From Sphingomonadales bacterium (GTDB lineage Bacteria; Bacteroidota; Bacteroidia; UBA7662): 64,000 nucleotides of DNA. Under the pieces are notes generated by a model that saw only the letters and a list, made by a program, of their open reading frames with translations, was not told the DNA's origin and made no database searches. The position numbers and the translations under genes are program-made. This document shows positions 21,341 to 46,970 of this stretch, piece after piece; the first letter of the stretch is position 1; the number at the start of each line of letters is the position of its first letter. The stretch covers positions 1 to 64,000 of the forward strand of contig VHAX01000008.1 of assembly GCA_016872215.1 (NCBI GenBank), in the 5' to 3' direction.

Positions 21341-23461
21341 TTACTCGAACATAATAGTGAAGTTCAACTGCCTGCCGGGCATGGGGTGATAGGGAACAAG
21401 CTCATAGCGGGTGTTCAGGAGGTTGTCGACAGTGGTGCTGAGATGCCAGCGCTGAGCCTTGCCGGGCAGTCGCCATCCCGCACCCAATCGAAGGGTAGTG
21501 TAGGGTCGCAGGCGTGTGTCGTTGGGGTCGAAGACATCAGGTCTGCGATCCACCACCCGCAGGCGTAGGTCAACGAATCTCTTGGGATGCATGACACGCA
21601 GTGCGGTGAGCATTACATGTGGTGGCAGATAGGGGAGAGGCCGGCTGTCGGGCATCTGCGAACTACGTGTGAAGGCATATTGCAGTTGCGCTTCCAGAAT
21701 CGATTTCCGTATGCTTTGGCGCGCTCGTGCATCGAGGTGCAGTCCCCCGCTTCGGGTTTCCTGAAGGGCGGTGGGCCGCCAGTACCCTGCCTCTGCATCC
21801 GGAAGCCACACGATCTGGTGTTTGAGGTAGTTCATAAACAAGCGGGTGTTGATTTGCAGCAGGGTTGGCTGATGGGGTTTCGATAGGGTGATGCTACGTC
21901 CGACCTGAGCCGACCAGCCCAACTCGTTGCCCAGGTCGGGCCTACCCCCGGGCTGCCAATACAGGTCGTTGAGCCCGGGAATTCGCTGCAAGCCGGAAAG
22001 GGAGGCACTCCAAGTACCTGAAAAGGAGAGGGTAGAGTCTGTAGCTGATGGACTGGTGTTTATGCGTTTATCGTCCTCACCTGTCTCATTATTCTGGACA
22101 AGAGCCAATAAATTTAAGGATTCAGGCCTTGATAGGGCGCTTTCCTGCACTTTTCCAACGAGCGTGGGGGCCGACCAGCTGATTTCGGGAACTGGCGTCA
22201 GCCAGCGCCCGTCGACCTGCTCTATACGCACCGCGAAGTTCACTGTGTGTCGTCCCCACTGCCTGCCAAAGAGCGATTGCAAGGCCAGCCTCGATTGATG
22301 CACCCCTGTGGTGTAGGCCGACGAGCGCACACGGTGGTTTTGCAGCTGAAGGTGGCTGTTTAGCCAACAGTTCGACCAATCGCGACGCCATCCCAGCCAA
22401 GCCTGCAGGCCCTCAACCCGATGCCAACCATACACCTGGGTCGACGAGTCGCGGTAGTGGTTGTCGTCACGGCTCCAGCCTGCATTTCCCCAAAATAAAT
22501 GTCGACCATGGGCGTGACTCCAATTCAGGCTCACCCGGTGGAGGGTGTCGCCCTGCTCGGCACGCGACTGCGCGGCTGTGAGGGCCGCTGGAAGCTGTCG
22601 ACAGTGCATCTGCACCCAATGCCCCAGTCGGAAATAGTGTTCACCCAGTTGAAAGCCGAGCTGTTCACGAAGGCCGGTCCCCGATTGGGCTGCATGGCTG
22701 CGTCGGGCAATGGGCGCATCAGGTGCCGACGTGGTGGGGTAGGGGAAATCCAGATCCCAGTGCTGGGCATAGGCCCGCATTCGGTAGGTGAACGTTCCGC
22801 GGTGAAGGGTCGTTCCGATACCGCCCGAGCGTGCACCGAAGGAGCCGGTCGTAACGAACAGGCTGGCGGGCGAGGCTCCCCATTGGCCTTCCCCCGGAAT
22901 CCACAACACTCCGCCCCCGGATCCCCCGCTGATTCGTCCGCCTGCAGCCCTAGCTTCGAGCTGTGCACCTGTTGTGAGCCAGGAGGGCATCAGGCCCAAA
23001 TCGGGGGTTTGGTTCATCGGGTTCACGAGACTCATGCCTTCCCAGGTCACCATCAGGTGCGTGGTGGGGAGTCCACCAGCCGCAAGTGTGCTGAGTTGTC
23101 CGGGTCCGCGGCTGTGTATGGCCAGTGGGCTCGACCACTGCAGGTCGCGACCTACATCCGAACCCGGCTGCATCCGCTGCTGAAGACTATCGCCCGTTGA
23201 CATCAAACCCACCGATTTACGCGCCTCGGGGCGTCGCTCCCAAACTTGAATTAGTGGCAAAACGCGGCGACTGTCGACCGAATGGTACAATGAAGATTGT
23301 CTGACCCCATGAGAATCGTGGTTCACCGAATCGCGAATGGCACCGGGATTCTTAGTCCTACCACTCTGGCCCCAAGTAGACAGGGGGAGCATCAAACACA
23401 CCCACAACAGGGTGCACGGGCGGAGGATTGGGGTGCGCGTCATGCTTTGAGGCCCTCTCAT
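21341..23461 (-). CDS. TonB-dependent outer-membrane receptor, BtuB-like (cobalamin)
   Basis: A 706-residue exported outer-membrane protein. The signal peptide is at about 8-32 (PCTLLWVCLMLPLSTWGQ). A plug-like region lies at ~90-205 (SRGPGQLSTLAAGG...THLMVTWEGMSLVNPMN). A long beta-barrel follows, ending in LLNTRYELVPYHPMPGRQ and a terminal aromatic strand NFTIMFE. It is shorter than many TonB receptors and lacks the carboxypeptidase-like N-terminal domain of SusC proteins, as expected for BtuB types. The cobalamin riboswitch 100-275 bases upstream gives the substrate. The downstream gene on the same strand is the BtuG-like lipoprotein. No btuCDF genes are in the window. Confidence 0.82.
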   Translation of the reverse strand: MRGPQSMTRTPILRPCTLLWVCLMLPLSTWGQSGRTKNPGAIRDSVNHDSHGVRQSSLYHSVDSRRVLPLIQVWERRPEARKSVGLMSTGDSLQQRMQPGSDVGRDLQWSSPLAIHSRGPGQLSTLAAGGLPTTHLMVTWEGMSLVNPMNQTPDLGLMPSWLTTGAQLEARAAGGRISGGSGGGVLWIPGEGQWGASPASLFVTTGSFGARSGGIGTTLHRGTFTYRMRAYAQHWDLDFPYPTTSAPDAPIARRSHAAQSGTGLREQLGFQLGEHYFRLGHWVQMHCRQLPAALTAAQSRAEQGDTLHRVSLNWSHAHGRHLFWGNAGWSRDDNHYRDSSTQVYGWHRVEGLQAWLGWRRDWSNCWLNSHLQLQNHRVRSSAYTTGVHQSRLALQSLFGRQWGRHTVNFAVRIEQVDGRWLTPVPEISWSAPTLVGKVQESALSRPESLNLLALVQNNETGEDDKRINTSPSATDSTLSFSGTWSASLSGLQRIPGLNDLYWQPGGRPDLGNELGWSAQVGRSITLSKPHQPTLLQINTRLFMNYLKHQIVWLPDAEAGYWRPTALQETRSGGLHLDARARQSIRKSILEAQLQYAFTRSSQMPDSRPLPYLPPHVMLTALRVMHPKRFVDLRLRVVDRRPDVFDPNDTRLRPYTTLRLGAGWRLPGKAQRWHLSTTVDNLLNTRYELVPYHPMPGRQLNFTIMFE

Positions 23462-23560
23462 TATAGGCCGGGCATACAGAATAGTGCAGGGCGATAAAAT
23501 TCGTCACTGCCCAACGGCATCTGTACACCCCGCTTTTAATCCCGAAAGCCGGGGGTTTAC

Positions 23561-23736
23561 ATCCAATCGGGCAGGTATTCTGACTCATCCCACCTCCGAA
23601 GGCCTTCCCGGTTTCCCAGTGGCACAATCTTCGGGGCTTTGAGGGGATCTACAGCAGCGGGCACTGTTCCGGACTGGTACCGGATTCCCTTTTCATCCGA
23701 TCGGACGAATACGCACGATCGGTAACCTGATTGGAT
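23561..23736 (-). ncRNA. Cobalamin riboswitch
   Basis: On the minus strand the sequence shows an outer P1 stem, ATCCAATC (23729-23736) with GATTGGAT (23561-23568). It continues with GGGAATCCGGT, the GTCCGGAACAGTGCCCGCTG block, GCCACTGGGAAACCGGGAAG, and a B12 box GAGTCAGAATACCTGCC (about 23570-23587). These are the conserved parts of cobalamin riboswitches in the right order. It ends 100 bases before the TonB receptor start, so it controls B12 uptake. The remaining gap on both sides (23462-23560, 23737-23913) shows no gene; the weak CCCG/CGGG hairpin at 23542-23555 might be part of the expression platform. Confidence 0.93.
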
Positions 23737-23913
23737 ACAACAAATATACAAATAGAATGAAACATTTGCTGATGCTAATGAAAATAAAGCCAAGCAACAT
23801 AACCCCAAGCGGCATCATTTTCAGCTTGTACTTTCCTATCTTTACCCCATAATTAAGATACCCGCGACCCCACAACCGTTTTTGTTTTCACATTACGTTC
23901 CCTGCAATACTAC

Positions 23914-28406: not shown

Positions 28407-30815
28407 TTAGTGGACGCAGACGAATCGGGCGAATTGTATGCGCCCCCCGTATTTCGCCTCCAGAATGTAGAGTCCCGCAGGGATCGTTTGTAAGTCCACC
28501 ATCCACTCTGTTTCTCCAGAGATGCGCACCTCCGTTGGTAATACACGACCCTGTAGATCCAGGACGCGCACGGATGGGGGTGATACAAGGCCCGAAGTGG
28601 ACGGGTTCAAGGTCGTGGAGGAACTGCCATCGGCAAGGAGTACCACCCGAAGCCAGTCACGCGCGGGATTGGGATAGAGCAGCAGTTGTAGGGGTGCCAA
28701 GGTGTGCACAGCATTGGGATTGCCTTGGTTGTTGGCCGCGAATGTTGGCGAGCGGTAGGTGAACGGCCCCGTGCCATTCGGGATGCGGGCATAGGCTGTG
28801 TCGGTGATCTGTAAGGGGAAATTCACCAGATCAACCAGTTGCCCGCTGCTGTTGCTCAGCACCACATCCTCGCCCGCCGCTGAAAGTCTAAAATTGGTGT
28901 GCAGTGGACCATCCAACGAGTCTGCATCCGTCCAAATGATGAGGTAGCCCCCCGCCGGAATTGAAATGCCCGAAGGGATGCGCCACCGCTGTGGGTTCGA
29001 CTGGTCGTCCGACAAATACCAGCCGCTCAGGGAGATGGCCTGTGCTGAAGTATTGTGTAGTTCAACCCAATCGGCGAATCCACCACTTTCATCTTGCGCC
29101 CCCGATTGATTGCTCGCCACAAATTCATTGATCACGACTCCTCCACCCAAGGGCTGGCCTTGAATCCGAAACACAAATACATCATGTTCTGCGCCGGTAG
29201 GGAGGTACGAGCGACTTTGTGCACTGTTGGCCCCAATGGCTTCGATGTAGTAGCGTACTAAACTAAATGGCGTGAAGGCAGGGAGCTGGGCTCCATAAAT
29301 ACCATCGCCTGCGGCCAGGTCCTGATGCTGACCGTCGTCGAACATTGGAACGGAGGTGAACCGACCCACCACCCGATCGCTGTAGTGCAGACGCACTTCC
29401 TGTATGGGTGTACCCCCCTGGGCCATGAAGGCCCGTACCCACGATACCTCACCCGGAATGGGAGCGGTCAGCAGCTGGAGTTGACTGTTCAAGTGATGTG
29501 CTGAGTCGACCAGAGGGGCTACCAGAGCCACTTCGGCGTTGGCCAGCATATAGTTTCGGCGGTTCTGAACAAAAGTCTTGAGCGCAGGCACCCCGGAGGT
29601 GTACTGGGAGGTGGTGTATAGTTTCTTCGGATCTGAGGCCACCTGCGCCGCAATAAGGGTATTGAGCCTGTCAATCAGGGGATTCGTGATACTAGGGTTG
29701 AATACTTCCTGAAGCAGTGTCCGGTAGTGGGCCAGATAGCGCTGCCGCCACTGAGGAATATTCAACAGTTTGTTCAATAGTGGGTAGTTGGCGTTGGTGA
29801 CATTTTTAAATGGCCCCCAGCTGCTGGATGTTGCGTTGTTCGTGATGAACGTGGAATTACCATCATATTCCAGCGGGGTGGTGAGGCCTGTTTCTGGTTC
29901 GTAATAGACTATGTAGTCCATCTTTCCTTTATAGACATAACTATCGTCGTCGGTGAAGATGTTTTCTGTGGCCAGGAACCATAGGATTTTGTCGATGTCA
30001 AGGTAGGCTTGCGCGGTATCAATGCTGGTGACGCTGGTTTGGGCCAGCACCGAACAGGCCCGCATGAGGTAGGTCCACGGCTGGGCTAAATCGCTCGATT
30101 TCAGGTAGTAGTAGTTTTTATAGAGGTTGGTATCGACCCCAAGGAAGTTCATGCCGGCCGTGCCGTCGCCCCATTGGCCGCCTGGGACTCCGGCGGTTTG
30201 TCGCGTTGCCCGGATGAGTGGGCCGTCGTTACTCAAAAACCACTCATCTAGAAAGGTTTTGTCGACCGCCTGAATGTTCGGATACAGGCCCCAGTCTTGT
30301 CCGTTGAGTGACAGGCGTATGTAACTGGCTTTGGCAATGGGTATATGGCGCATAGCGAGTTGGTTGTAGAGCACCTCACGCATAAAACTGGCATCGGTAT
30401 GGGCGTTGTTGAATTTGAGGTTTCTGTAACCCATCAGTTTTTGTCCACTTCGCACAAAATCTGTCTCTATGGCAAACGATTTTTTCTGGGAATTGGTGAT
30501 GGTGGTGTAGGATGTATTTCCCCGGAAGCGTACTCCAACGCTGTCAAGTGTAAGGTTTCCCACTGTTAGGGTGGCTGGAATGAGTGTTTCACTGGTATAA
30601 TTGGCCTGCAACAGGCTCCAATAATTGGTTTGGGGAAACTGCAGGTTCACCTGCCTGATACTGTCTAACTCATACCATCCGGGGTCTGGACTCCCGCCAC
30701 CGTAGAGGATTCGGCCATCGGCAGAGTAGTAACGCTCTGGCGGCAACAATTGTCCGACGCTGATTCGGATACTCAGGAAAAGAACAAGAAATATCAGGAG
30801 AGCACGTAGATTCAT
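28407..30815 (-). CDS. Secreted CotH-kinase-like protein with lamin-tail domain and T9SS tail
   Basis: An 802-residue exported protein. The signal peptide is at 1-21 (LRALLIFLVLFLSIRISVG). A CotH domain spans ~30-430 (VRFRGNTSY, KKSFAIETDF, NLKFNNAHTDASFMREVL, LEYDGNSTF); CotH proteins are atypical kinases that phosphorylate secreted proteins. A lamin-tail domain lies at ~575-690 (VVINEFVASNQSG...DWVELHNTS...LSGWYLSDD). The C-terminal part (YPNPARDWLRVVL...PAGLYILEAKYGG) is a T9SS type A tail. The start is the ATG at 30815, which opens the signal peptide; the frame extends 27 bases further up. It stands alone between the crcB relic and a long gap. Confidence 0.83.
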   Translation of the reverse strand: MNLRALLIFLVLFLSIRISVGQLLPPERYYSADGRILYGGGSPDPGWYELDSIRQVNLQFPQTNYWSLLQANYTSETLIPATLTVGNLTLDSVGVRFRGNTSYTTITNSQKKSFAIETDFVRSGQKLMGYRNLKFNNAHTDASFMREVLYNQLAMRHIPIAKASYIRLSLNGQDWGLYPNIQAVDKTFLDEWFLSNDGPLIRATRQTAGVPGGQWGDGTAGMNFLGVDTNLYKNYYYLKSSDLAQPWTYLMRACSVLAQTSVTSIDTAQAYLDIDKILWFLATENIFTDDDSYVYKGKMDYIVYYEPETGLTTPLEYDGNSTFITNNATSSSWGPFKNVTNANYPLLNKLLNIPQWRQRYLAHYRTLLQEVFNPSITNPLIDRLNTLIAAQVASDPKKLYTTSQYTSGVPALKTFVQNRRNYMLANAEVALVAPLVDSAHHLNSQLQLLTAPIPGEVSWVRAFMAQGGTPIQEVRLHYSDRVVGRFTSVPMFDDGQHQDLAAGDGIYGAQLPAFTPFSLVRYYIEAIGANSAQSRSYLPTGAEHDVFVFRIQGQPLGGGVVINEFVASNQSGAQDESGGFADWVELHNTSAQAISLSGWYLSDDQSNPQRWRIPSGISIPAGGYLIIWTDADSLDGPLHTNFRLSAAGEDVVLSNSSGQLVDLVNFPLQITDTAYARIPNGTGPFTYRSPTFAANNQGNPNAVHTLAPLQLLLYPNPARDWLRVVLLADGSSSTTLNPSTSGLVSPPSVRVLDLQGRVLPTEVRISGETEWMVDLQTIPAGLYILEAKYGGRIQFARFVCVH

Positions 30816-42464: not shown

Positions 42465-44453
42465 ATGACAATTCCAACGCTGGATTATTCGACGTTCAGA
42501 TTCGGCAACTCTTCCCGAAGCACGCTATTTTGGGTGGGACTATGTTTCGGGTTTCTGGCTTTCTTTATGCCTGAGTACGGACATTCCCAAGGTTTTGTGT
42601 ATGCCCGCCTGCAGGGCCAGCCCCTTATGAACACCGCTGGCTGGTCACTCATAGGAGCCGCCGGCATCGGCGACACCAACGGCGATGTGGACACCTTCAG
42701 CAATGAAATGATCCTTGTCCCACCCACCACTAATAACAGCGGTGGGGTGTTCTACAACCAACCATTGGATTTGAGTCTCTGTACCCGTTGGAGTGCGCGT
42801 TTTGATTTTCGCATTTTTGAGGGTTCTGCCGCAGATGGAATTGCGTTCTGTTTTTTGGATGTCCCACCTTCAAATTTTGTAACGGGCGGTGGCATAGGCA
42901 TCCCTACAAACGGAACCGGATTAAAAGTGGTGTTCGATACCTGGGATAATGGTTGCGGTGCCAATCCGGAGATTCAGATTTATAGCGGGCCGGGCTACAA
43001 TGAGTGCATCGCAGGTATCGTGAAGATCAACAATACAAACGGGAATCTGAATTTTATGCGGTCCAATAACTACCACACGGCTCAGGTGGATTACGACAGT
43101 GGGTTTGTGAGCGTGATGATCGACAGTGTGGTGTGGCTTAGCGGAGTATATGCACCGGCCAATTATGTGGGCTATCTGGGTTTTACTTCCGGTACCGGAG
43201 CGGCAACCGACCGGCATTCGATTCGGGATGTATTGATCTATACCGAGGGAACCTCGCTATTGGGATTTCAGTCGATCGACACAACCCGCCGAATCCCGCT
43301 GATCGAGGCTGAATGCTATAGCGATAGTTTGTGGGTACTAACGCGTGGCAAGTTTCGCTGTGCATCAGTCGATTCCGCCGGCTCCGACCTGCGTTTGTAT
43401 TCTCCGACCGGTGTGCCCATACCTATATATAGGGTACAATCATTTTGCACCGATGACAGAAGCGACTCGCTGCTGCTGCTGTTGGCCACCCGGCTGGTTC
43501 AACCGGGCGACCACCACTTAGTGGTCCGAAATGGAAGGGATGGCAATCCCATTTTGGGTGATTGCAACTCCCGAATCGATGAATTCGATTCACTTACGAT
43601 TCGGGTCGTCAACTGCTACACCTATACCCGACCTGTGGATATGCGGAATGTGAGTGTCACGCCCGATAACCAGGGAGTGAACCTGATCTGGGAAAGTCCG
43701 CCCGGCATCAACCCTGATTTTTTTCGGGGCTATCGCTTGCAGCGCAATGATCGTCCTGACGGCCGGCAGTGGACCGACATCGCCTTTTTGTCACGAATCG
43801 AAGACACGCTGTATTATACGGAAGACCCCAACCCGACCCGGGAAAGCCGCGATTTCCGTGTTATTTTGAAGGTCTACTACAACCCAGATTGTGCCCCGGG
43901 CGATTCGGTTGGTTCAATTTTTTTGCGCGATGAAACTGGATTCCTTGCGGATGCGACCCAATTTGATGGTCGACTTTCGTGGCTTCCCTACTCAGAGGCA
44001 TGGTCAAATCCCCGCTATGAAATATGGATGAGTCGCCCTGAAGTCGGACTGGACTCACAAAGGGTGACCTCCACTACAGATACTTTTGTGGATTTCTCGA
44101 AGCCCCGCGAATTGGGACGCTTTCGCTTGCATGTGCATACGGTGAACGATCTGGATGGGAGATACGCGCGCAGCAATTATCTGGATTTTGTGGTGGATGA
44201 ACTGGAACTTGAAGTGTTTAATGTGGTGACCCCCAACGGCGATGGGATTAATGATGCGTTCTATATTCGCTACATTGAGGCATACCCCCAGGCACGGGTT
44301 CGCCTGTTCAATCGTTGGGGTCAATCCGTTTTCAATCGGGTGGCTTATGCCAACAACTATCAACCTTCGGATCTGGAGGCTGGCAGTTATATCTATCTGA
44401 TTGAAGTCCCGGGAAAGAATCCACTACAGGGAATTCTGCGGGTGCAACGCTAA
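42465..44453 (+). CDS. Secreted L-type-lectin-like protein with gliding-motility C-terminal (T9SS type B) domain
   Basis: A 662-residue protein with signal ~20-41 (FWVGLCFGFLAFFMPEYGHS). Residues ~45-265 resemble an L-type (legume) lectin sandwich: GGVFYNQPLDLSLCTRWSAR, cut to FYNQPLDLSLCTRWSAR; DGIAFCFLD; GLKVVFDTWDNG; and VGYLGFTSGTGAATDRHSIR. A fibronectin-like stretch follows (~395-490). The end (FNVVTPNGDGINDAFYI...RLFNRWGQSVF...AGSYIYLIEV) is a CHU_C/gliding type B sorting domain. L-type lectins often bind mannose-rich glycans; the neighbouring N-glycan operon makes that a sensible guess. It diverges from the transporter gene. Confidence 0.8.
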   Translation: MTIPTLDYSTFRFGNSSRSTLFWVGLCFGFLAFFMPEYGHSQGFVYARLQGQPLMNTAGWSLIGAAGIGDTNGDVDTFSNEMILVPPTTNNSGGVFYNQPLDLSLCTRWSARFDFRIFEGSAADGIAFCFLDVPPSNFVTGGGIGIPTNGTGLKVVFDTWDNGCGANPEIQIYSGPGYNECIAGIVKINNTNGNLNFMRSNNYHTAQVDYDSGFVSVMIDSVVWLSGVYAPANYVGYLGFTSGTGAATDRHSIRDVLIYTEGTSLLGFQSIDTTRRIPLIEAECYSDSLWVLTRGKFRCASVDSAGSDLRLYSPTGVPIPIYRVQSFCTDDRSDSLLLLLATRLVQPGDHHLVVRNGRDGNPILGDCNSRIDEFDSLTIRVVNCYTYTRPVDMRNVSVTPDNQGVNLIWESPPGINPDFFRGYRLQRNDRPDGRQWTDIAFLSRIEDTLYYTEDPNPTRESRDFRVILKVYYNPDCAPGDSVGSIFLRDETGFLADATQFDGRLSWLPYSEAWSNPRYEIWMSRPEVGLDSQRVTSTTDTFVDFSKPRELGRFRLHVHTVNDLDGRYARSNYLDFVVDELELEVFNVVTPNGDGINDAFYIRYIEAYPQARVRLFNRWGQSVFNRVAYANNYQPSDLEAGSYIYLIEVPGKNPLQGILRVQR

Positions 44454-44582: not shown

Positions 44583-46970
44583 CTATTTCCGAATCCAGAC
44601 TCTCTGTGCGGCGGTTCCGTTGCTGCCTTTCATCATCAGATGATACACGGCTGGCACGAGTCCACTTAGATCCAGGTCGGTGTTGCCGTTGCTAAAGTCG
44701 ATTGCATCGATCTCCTGTATCAAGCGACCGAGGTTGTCGAAAACCTGAATGGAAACAGGCTTCGAATCGGGTAATCCCTGCAATCTGAATTGACCATCAG
44801 AAGGATTGGGATACGCAATGAATGAAGGACGGCGGGAAAGATCCTTGACCGATGTGGTGTTGCGTGCCACACGGAATCGGGTAGAATCGGTCTGCAATGT
44901 ATTTTTCTGGAGGTCGCTGTTTACTGCAACGCGGGGGCCGTCTAAGTAAACCAGGCTATCTGTAGTTCGGCTAAAAAACAAGCGTACGGCTGAGCGCCAT
45001 GAACCTGAGCGGGGAATTACCTGTGCAAAATTGTTCAGGGTGAACAATACCATTCCGTCGGAACCCACCTGAAATTGATGGGCTGGCATTCCACCCAAAA
45101 GAAGACTCATGGCAGAGGTAAAACGCAATCCATGTACCTGAAACTGCATGGCAACGATTCCTGCGTCATTGTTCCGCATGCTGATGTCCACAAAATTCTG
45201 CATAGTGTCGAGTACATCGATTCGAACCTGAGCGCTTTGGGCCGGATTTCTCAGACCCTGTGGAAAATTGCAACTGCCACTGCTTCCATTGAGTTGAAGA
45301 CAATTGCCCAGGTGAACCAAATCCCAAACATCAACCAGGCTGTCGCCCGTTGCGTCCTTACAAACACTATAATTAAGTGTGTCCTGAAGCAATCCTCCGG
45401 AATACAATCCATAATCCAAAGCATTCCTGAGGGTGTCGGCATTCATATCGCCAATCATAGCCCGACCGCCACAAACGCCTTCACAATCTCTAAGCGCATT
45501 ACCGTAGGCCACACCAGCACAATCGCGATAGGGAGCGCAGGAAGTATCACGGGTAAACTGCTTGCCCTGGGCATTGGTGTAAATATTGAGGCACACCTGC
45601 GCCCAGTTGTTGGTGTAATTGGTTTCATAGCGCCCCAACGCGTCGGGCGACTGGTCCCAGTTCACTTTCATGGCCAGGATGTAATCGCCATCCGGCACAT
45701 CCGTAATGTCGATCCACTGGCAGTCTAAACTCCGGCTATAGATGTCTCCACAGCCCGCAGTAATACCCATATTGCTGCAACCATATTTCGCCATGCCAGG
45801 CGGACAATCTAAATCCATCACGCAAAACCCGTTTTTAAATCCAATGGGTATGCGCGTACCTTGAGTTGTTGGTTCCGGATAAAGCACATATTCCGAGTAG
45901 CCTTCATAATGGGTGTGGTTGTGGCAATTCACGGTGTTAAACTGACCAGGGTGTGTTGATGGATTGCCGATGAAGTAGTCGCTCTGACCAATATTTCTAA
46001 TGTCTGTAGTGAAACGAATAATGGTACGGGTACCAAATCCTGTTAGGCATTTCTCCTGAACCCTGCATGTTGAGCTACTGACCGTAGAGCGTTGGAGCGA
46101 TGTTTCAATTACACCCTGTAAGATTGTGAGGTCAGGCCCTGGCGGGCACATTGGGTCGTTGTTGTAGTAGCAGGGACCGAATACGGTGGCGAGTGGACTA
46201 TAATTACAGGCGTTGGAGTCCGGACAACCGGCAATGGGACCGGCGAATGTAATATTAAAGGGAATCGGGCCAGGTGCGTTGGCGCCACCAATGCGGATGA
46301 GGTAGGTGGTGGCCGTGTCCATGTATGCCTGTACCCGGGCTCTTTGTCCACACACCGAATTGGTGTCGTTGTAGAGAATGGTTCCTGTATTGTCCATGAT
46401 CAGCTGAGGAATGCTGCAGTTGTTGTATACCCAAATTCGGGTATCCCAGGCTGCGGGTGCTCCGCAAGTGCTGATTATGTAGGCGCCCAGGCTGTCAGGC
46501 TGAAAACGATACCAGCTATTGCGCACCGGTGCCACATAGTTGCCTGTATCCACAACCAAGGCTTGTTGGCAAGACTGGCTGCTGCCGCAGTTCACCGTTT
46601 TGGTCTCATAGCGACCGAATTGTCCGCCGCTGGCCTGGATTACTCCATTCAGCAGCAACTGATAGGAGCCATTTCCGTGCGCGCAACAAATTCCATCTCC
46701 ATAGCTATCAAATATGGTGAAGAAAACGCATGTGCCGGTCGGAATACAGACGGAATCGCGGTTTACTTGTCCACCTATCACGGTATCTCTGCGCATGAGA
46801 GTGTCGCCCATCTGGTTTTGCAGAATCCAGGAAATTTCTCCGGGATAGTTGTCGGGTGTAAGGGCCACCGTTATGAGTGTTTGTCCCGTCGGGCAATTCT
46901 GGGCATCTACAGTAGGTGCCATCAAAAGGATGGCGAGGAAGGAAAATAAGGTTGTGAAAAATATCTTCAT
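44583..46970 (-). CDS. Secreted lysyl oxidase-domain protein with dockerin-like repeats and T9SS tail
   Basis: A 795-residue exported protein (signal 1-23, FFTTLFSFLAILLMAPTVDA). Residues ~25-245 are cysteine-rich beta modules. A lysyl oxidase domain at ~280-465 carries the copper motif CHNHTH (His350, 352, 354), Lys379 in GFKNGFC and Tyr411 in CGDIYSRSLDCQWIDITDV; in vertebrate LOX the equivalent Lys and Tyr form the lysine tyrosylquinone cofactor. Two dockerin-like calcium repeats follow (GDMNADTLRNALDYGLY; DATGDSLVDVWDLVHL). A T9SS type A tail (YPNPSDGQFRLQG) ends the protein. The expected reaction is oxidation of lysine or other primary amines to aldehydes, outside the cell. The start is ATG 46970; the frame extends 39 bases up. 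Confidence 0.85.
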   Translation of the reverse strand: MKIFFTTLFSFLAILLMAPTVDAQNCPTGQTLITVALTPDNYPGEISWILQNQMGDTLMRRDTVIGGQVNRDSVCIPTGTCVFFTIFDSYGDGICCAHGNGSYQLLLNGVIQASGGQFGRYETKTVNCGSSQSCQQALVVDTGNYVAPVRNSWYRFQPDSLGAYIISTCGAPAAWDTRIWVYNNCSIPQLIMDNTGTILYNDTNSVCGQRARVQAYMDTATTYLIRIGGANAPGPIPFNITFAGPIAGCPDSNACNYSPLATVFGPCYYNNDPMCPPGPDLTILQGVIETSLQRSTVSSSTCRVQEKCLTGFGTRTIIRFTTDIRNIGQSDYFIGNPSTHPGQFNTVNCHNHTHYEGYSEYVLYPEPTTQGTRIPIGFKNGFCVMDLDCPPGMAKYGCSNMGITAGCGDIYSRSLDCQWIDITDVPDGDYILAMKVNWDQSPDALGRYETNYTNNWAQVCLNIYTNAQGKQFTRDTSCAPYRDCAGVAYGNALRDCEGVCGGRAMIGDMNADTLRNALDYGLYSGGLLQDTLNYSVCKDATGDSLVDVWDLVHLGNCLQLNGSSGSCNFPQGLRNPAQSAQVRIDVLDTMQNFVDISMRNNDAGIVAMQFQVHGLRFTSAMSLLLGGMPAHQFQVGSDGMVLFTLNNFAQVIPRSGSWRSAVRLFFSRTTDSLVYLDGPRVAVNSDLQKNTLQTDSTRFRVARNTTSVKDLSRRPSFIAYPNPSDGQFRLQGLPDSKPVSIQVFDNLGRLIQEIDAIDFSNGNTDLDLSGLVPAVYHLMMKGSNGTAAQRVWIRK

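Follow-up and report, generated by a model that had tools for sequence, protein, structure and literature searches.

Animals use lysyl oxidase for collagen cross-linking, and the gene at positions 44583-46970 of the minus strand (ATG start at 46970, 795 amino acids plus stop) in the 64,000-nucleotide stretch of Bacteroidota DNA analysed here, referred to as the window, raises the question of what such an enzyme does in a bacterium whose own genome gave no match to the collagen family. Judged from its sequence, the protein is confirmed as a true lysyl oxidase (LOX), and it is part of a bacterial family that is conserved but has yet to be characterised. Our overall reading, which we hold with moderate confidence, is that it would be a surface-displayed or released copper/LTQ amine oxidase of an aerobic, uncultured aquatic member of the Bacteroidota, and that it would cross-link surface or matrix proteins. 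The protein is laid out as follows.

46902..46970, minus strand: Sec signal peptide, residues 1-23 (MKIFFTTLFSFLAILLMAPTVDA followed by Q, cut predicted before Gln24, read by eye)
46587..46898, minus strand: N-terminal beta domain, residues 25-128 (AlphaFold2 strands and invariant alignment columns)
46233..46583, minus strand: second beta domain, residues 130-246 (alignment and AlphaFold2 model)
46143..46232, minus strand: short Cys loop GCxDxxACNYxPxATxxxxC, residues 247-276 (invariant columns)
45543..46139, minus strand: lysyl oxidase catalytic domain, residues 278-476 (PF01186, and LOXL2 5ze3 by sequence and fold)
45909..45926, minus strand: copper-binding motif C349-H-N-H-T-H354, with His350, His352 and His354 (LOXL2 alignment and conservation)
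45834..45836, minus strand: Lys379, the LTQ precursor lysine (LOXL2 alignment and conservation)
45738..45740, minus strand: Tyr411, the LTQ precursor tyrosine (LOXL2 alignment and conservation)
45714..45725, minus strand: DCQW block, residues 416-419 (LOXL2 alignment; nearly invariant)
45270..45482, minus strand: type I dockerin, residues 497-567 (family profile, loop ligands and helices in the model)
44853..45254, minus strand: predicted cohesin-fold beta sandwich, residues 573-706 (AlphaFold2 model and Foldseek)
44586..44825, minus strand: T9SS type-A C-terminal sorting domain, residues 716-795 (PF18962, TIGR04183 and a fold match to 8glk)

The two beta domains that precede the enzyme have no Pfam match, and the second belongs to no named family; the first carries four family-invariant cysteines (26, 75, 81 and 128). 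The Cys loop that follows them has a median identity of 57% over 47 homologues. The full-length AlphaFold2 model (48-row alignment) reaches a mean pLDDT of 83.7, and the active-site stretch, residues 340-400, is its weaker part, with pLDDT 58-74.

The assignment of the catalytic domain rests on several concordant comparisons. Pfam Lysyl_oxidase (PF01186) is matched at residues 291-466 (E=5.1e-31, 108.3 bits against a cut-off of 20.4), the closest solved protein in a phmmer search of the PDB is human LOXL2 (5ze3, E=3.1e-23; about 36% identity over 167 residues), and the same structure is the best PDB fold match of the full-length model (E=1.6e-12). In the LOXL2 alignment CHNHTH falls on CHRHYH, GFK379 on GHK653, DIY411 on DMY689 and DCQW on DCQW, Lys653 and Tyr689 being the residues that we take to form the LTQ pair of LOXL2. 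All eight structural cysteines of the LOX domain align with those of LOXL2, and C460 and C478 presumably make up the fifth disulfide pair, by analogy with LOXL2. The likeness to LOXL2 and animal LOX thus covers the catalytic domain, the copper histidines, the LTQ lysine and tyrosine, the DCQW block and the eight cysteines, whereas the SRCR domains of LOXL2 are missing and the flanking parts are of bacterial type: two beta domains ahead of the enzyme, with the dockerin, the cohesin-fold domain and the T9SS tail behind it. The protein also differs from animal LOX in lacking the first 'copper talon' histidine, which is reported to be non-essential and absent in bacteria (PMC4448552). The combined LOX motif is not a chance pattern: a six-frame search of the window finds it a single time, and none of 20,000 shuffled versions of the protein contains it.

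These results bear out the claim of the sequence-only reading that the protein is a LOX with complete copper and LTQ residues. That reading had also likened the site to the vertebrate one down to the spacing to the DCQW block, which is right for the residues and for the step from Tyr to DCQW (5 in both proteins), but not for the distances from the third His to Lys (25, against 23 in LOXL2) and from Lys to Tyr (32, against 36). In the solved structure of the LOXL2 precursor, too, the LTQ lysine and tyrosine lie at a large distance from each other, and for this reason the distance between Lys379 and Tyr411 in a precursor-like model refutes nothing.

Two further features named in the sequence-only reading, dockerin-like repeats and a T9SS tail, hold as well. 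The repeats form a two-loop dockerin: the family profile matches the C. thermocellum CelS dockerins 1daq and 2mte at residues 497-552 (E=0.002), and the two calcium loops read D508-M-N-A-D512...D519 (ligands D508, N510, D512 and D519) and D539-A-T-G-D543...D550 (ligands D539, T541, D543 and D550), with D508, D519 and D550 invariant in 48 homologues. Pfam Dockerin_1 (PF00404) is matched by 9 of 48 relatives, and the window protein on its own lies below its threshold. The domain that follows the dockerin did not figure in the earlier reading. An AlphaFold2 model of residues 476-708 (pLDDT 89, pTM 0.83) predicts a cohesin fold for residues 573-706: the nine best Foldseek PDB matches of the model are all cohesins, with probability 1.00 and, for most, a TM of about 0.5 normalised by target. 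A cohesin by sequence was rejected, as an hhalign comparison of this domain with eight cohesin-like domains from the same genome returned a probability of 0.25%, and a profile search with it found no PDB cohesin and no sequence family. Because the predicted fold matches but the sequence profiles do not, we call it a cohesin-fold domain rather than a cohesin. Cohesin-bearing glycoside hydrolases of Clostridium perfringens (2jh2, 2vo8, 2w1n) and the CelS dockerin (1daq) likewise join a secreted enzyme to a dockerin or cohesin-fold module; here, in contrast, both modules lie in one LOX chain, and the likeness to cohesins is one of predicted fold only.

The two modules may pack together or may anchor the enzyme within an assembly at the cell surface. 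For this scaffold step alone, we give about an even chance to an arrangement in which the dockerin serves no scaffold but binds the cohesin-fold domain of its own chain, so that the pair would connect the enzyme to the T9SS tail as a stalk. The dockerin adjoins the cohesin-fold domain in every aligned member and the joint model of both modules is confident (pTM 0.83), which favours such a stalk, but a partner in trans is also possible because the genome carries other dockerins and cohesins: it has 18 dockerin and 10 cohesin matches, among them a T9SS protein with three cohesins. The latter (L158:975-4286, on C16 of the same genome) is 1104 amino acids long and scaffoldin-like, and a second protein (L159:5603-8119) combines three cohesin-like repeats with a dockerin.

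The T9SS tail matches Por_Secre_tail (PF18962) at residues 720-793 (E=5.5e-9, 36.6 bits against a cut-off of 27) and TIGR04183 (E=7e-8, 32.4 bits against a cut-off of 23), and its fold matches the C-terminal domain of the T9SS protein NucA (8glk). The genome (2.09 Mb) encodes a T9SS, a call based on SprA (2507 bits) and on type-A tails, of which there are 52 matches. An active, T9SS-exported LTQ amine oxidase is the likely identity of the protein. Its signal peptide would direct it through the Sec pathway into the periplasm, where its paired cysteines would form disulfides; His350, His352 and His354 would bind copper, and Lys379 and Tyr411 would self-process to LTQ, as in the animal enzyme; the sorting domain would then lead the protein through the T9SS to surface attachment or release, as expected from T9SS biology. 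At the cell surface, oxygen-driven oxidation of primary amines, most likely the lysines of exposed proteins, would yield aldehydes, hydrogen peroxide and ammonia, and surface or matrix proteins would become covalently cross-linked.

How far do known prokaryotic enzymes support this? LOX was reported in Bacteroidetes and four other bacterial phyla by Grau-Bove et al. 2015 (PMC4448552), and the archaeal enzyme HTU-LOX of Haloterrigena turkmenica has copper-dependent amine oxidase activity in vitro, with lysine-containing polypeptides and polymers among its substrates (PMC6452851), which makes activity of the window LOX likely. The remark in the sequence-only reading that bacterial LOX proteins are scarcely studied is therefore fair as to little study, but they are not new, being known since 2015 (PMC4448552), and an archaeal LOX is active (PMC6452851). 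What sets the present family apart is its architecture. All but three of the prokaryotic sequences in the 2015 survey are simple LOX-only proteins (PMC4448552), whereas a multi-domain T9SS architecture of about 800 amino acids is the rule in about 90 Bacteroidota homologues, and neither extra modules nor a T9SS tail are reported for HTU-LOX. In the open-licence literature, we found no publication on a LOX linked to type IX secretion or built with a dockerin/cohesin-fold architecture. By these comparisons the enzyme family is ordinary and known, and its T9SS/dockerin/cohesin-fold setting is uncommon.

That the main job of the enzyme is to cross-link the cell's own surface or matrix proteins is a tentative proposal. 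Its live rival, which we consider the less probable of the two and rather unlikely, is a scavenging amine oxidase that acts outside the cell on amines, whether free or bound to polymers (for instance polyamines, taurine-like amines or foreign peptides), instead of the cell's own proteins, either for nitrogen or as a means of disarming cationic peptides and of releasing hydrogen peroxide against competitors. HTU-LOX offers a precedent for such a role: it oxidises small amines including taurine, as well as polymyxin and aminoglycosides, its specificity is relaxed, and its native role was called 'cryptic', nitrogen gain or competition being suggested by the authors (PMC6452851). The lysine-poor T9SS cargo of the window's own genome (median 2.3% in 22 proteins read, from L111-L140) also speaks for scavenging. 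With 1.6% lysine, the LOX does not stand out from these other T9SS proteins, and lysine depletion as a sign of self-protection was rejected. Gene neighbourhoods bear on both proposals. A family-wide conserved partner or substrate gene was looked for among the neighbours of the homologues and rejected, links being found at the level of clades only; this speaks for scavenging, but no amine-uptake or aldehyde dehydrogenase gene is conserved next to LOX over the family either, and the family-wide dockerin and cohesin-fold architecture is more suggestive of an enzyme held in place at the surface than of a simple catabolic one. Cross-linking of surface proteins is plausibly the function that best fits an anchored enzyme.

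In the window itself the LOX gene stands alone, divergent from an M23 peptidase gene and convergent with the following gene.

42465..44453, plus strand: L-type-lectin-like protein with a T9SS type-B tail, convergent neighbour of LOX

This neighbour adjoins LOX in two genera and contains 0.9% lysine. A closer association is seen in ten marine Flavobacteriales loci (L066, L035, L045, L050, L051, L052, L060, L062, L065 and L075), in which a CotH kinase gene directly follows LOX on the same strand at a distance of about 2-45 bases, an operon-like arrangement. The partner in L066 (L066:9557-12610) combines a CotH kinase domain, a lamin-tail domain (LTD) and a T9SS type-B tail; its domains were read in this locus, and the other nine were assigned by similarity. 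Because the LOX domains of the paired loci have diverged to as little as 67% identity, the pairing must be old in marine Flavobacteriales, and its survival suggests that LOX and the secreted CotH kinase, two secreted protein-modifying enzymes, may work together, although CotH is common anyway (66 of 100 relatives) and is not adjacent to LOX in the window's own genome. The window does hold a T9SS-A protein at 28410-30815 (minus strand) with a CotH kinase domain at 29547-30533, about 14 kb from LOX and unlinked to it. Elsewhere in the window, a cobalamin riboswitch (23553-23745, minus strand, 102.7 bits) lies just upstream of a 706-amino-acid ORF (21344-23461) that resembles a TonB-dependent receptor, an ordinary arrangement.

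Conservation of the active site argues for catalysis. A scan of genome contigs gave 221 places that encode relatives, of which 80 were retained, nearly all from Bacteroidota metagenome bins as judged by title or by neighbouring genes. The complete homologues have about 700-1,200 amino acids, most of them around 800, with a constant domain order wherever they were aligned. No exception at His350, His352, His354, Lys379 or Tyr411 occurs among 88 unique homologues, selected with a motif filter that required CHxHxH and CQW and hence favours the histidines, not the lysine or the tyrosine. Five loci outside the filter, which read CNW or CQF where the others have CQW, likewise retain all of these residues, and the homologues detected by profile only (L082-L106) agree on the invariant His, Lys and Tyr; the LTQ lysine and tyrosine are invariant in all 93 homologues read. 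Lys379 is moreover the only invariant lysine of a lysine-poor family (0.4-4.3%), as would be predicted for a residue that forms the cofactor. Among members of the genus, the LOX domain shows 93-95% protein identity, a dN of about 0.03 and a dS near saturation, and purifying selection on it is strong by this comparison.

LOX was found in 15 of the 17 genomes of the window's own family by whole-genome search, the two without it being 85% and 87% complete, in none of four order mates and sporadically in the class; among 396 genomes drawn from the phylum, four have any LOX match, the window's own genome included. Some members of the family carry tandem LOX paralogues side by side (L008, L009). A locus titled 'Euryarchaeota archaeon SP189' (L067) has LOX amid the gene neighbours seen in Flavobacteriales bins; most probably the contig was mis-binned and the LOX is not archaeal. 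A phage, plasmid or viral origin was rejected, as no LOX relatives were found among phages, plasmids or viral contigs and PHROGs gave no match either.

More distant LOX-like proteins also occur in the Bacteroidota, four of about 700-840 amino acids (L107-L110) and two shorter (L175, L176). They keep the LTQ lysine and tyrosine and mostly the histidines: L108-L110 read H-x-x-H-x-H-x-H and so have the first 'copper talon' histidine that is reported absent in bacteria, and L107 is without the copper histidines. That the LOX fold has lost its oxidase function, and persists in a surface adhesin for copper binding or as a structural element, finds a precedent in the divergent L107 but is very improbable for the window's family, in which both cofactor residues and the three histidines are completely invariant and no other large domain is nearly as well conserved as the catalytic one (58% median identity across 47 homologues, against 18-41% for the others). 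A tree of 35 rows joins the window's class to LOXL2 and separates both from the distant Bacteroidota LOX-like proteins (support 99/97); as the branches are long and the rows are Bacteroidota and LOXL2 only, other phyla being absent, this suggests only that the class is the more animal-like of the Bacteroidota LOX groups and does not place animal LOX.

An exported, active amine oxidase that cross-links surface proteins is thus the reading we prefer, and it leads to a broader, speculative picture to which we give a low probability: some aquatic Bacteroidota might build a covalently matured protein coat, a counterpart of the animal extracellular matrix, in which a T9SS-exported LOX, placed by dockerin/cohesin-type modules, would modify and cross-link surface proteins, with a secreted CotH kinase co-expressed in marine Flavobacteriales. 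The family bears on the question of what LOX does in bacteria, and what it did before animals applied it to collagen. It offers a testable case, namely a near-core, strongly conserved LOX that is predicted to reach the cell surface and has an active site of the animal type, although no collagen is recognisable in the genome. Should it act on proteins, it would represent a new bacterial means of covalently hardening a surface or matrix, and LOX could be produced from it without animal cells.
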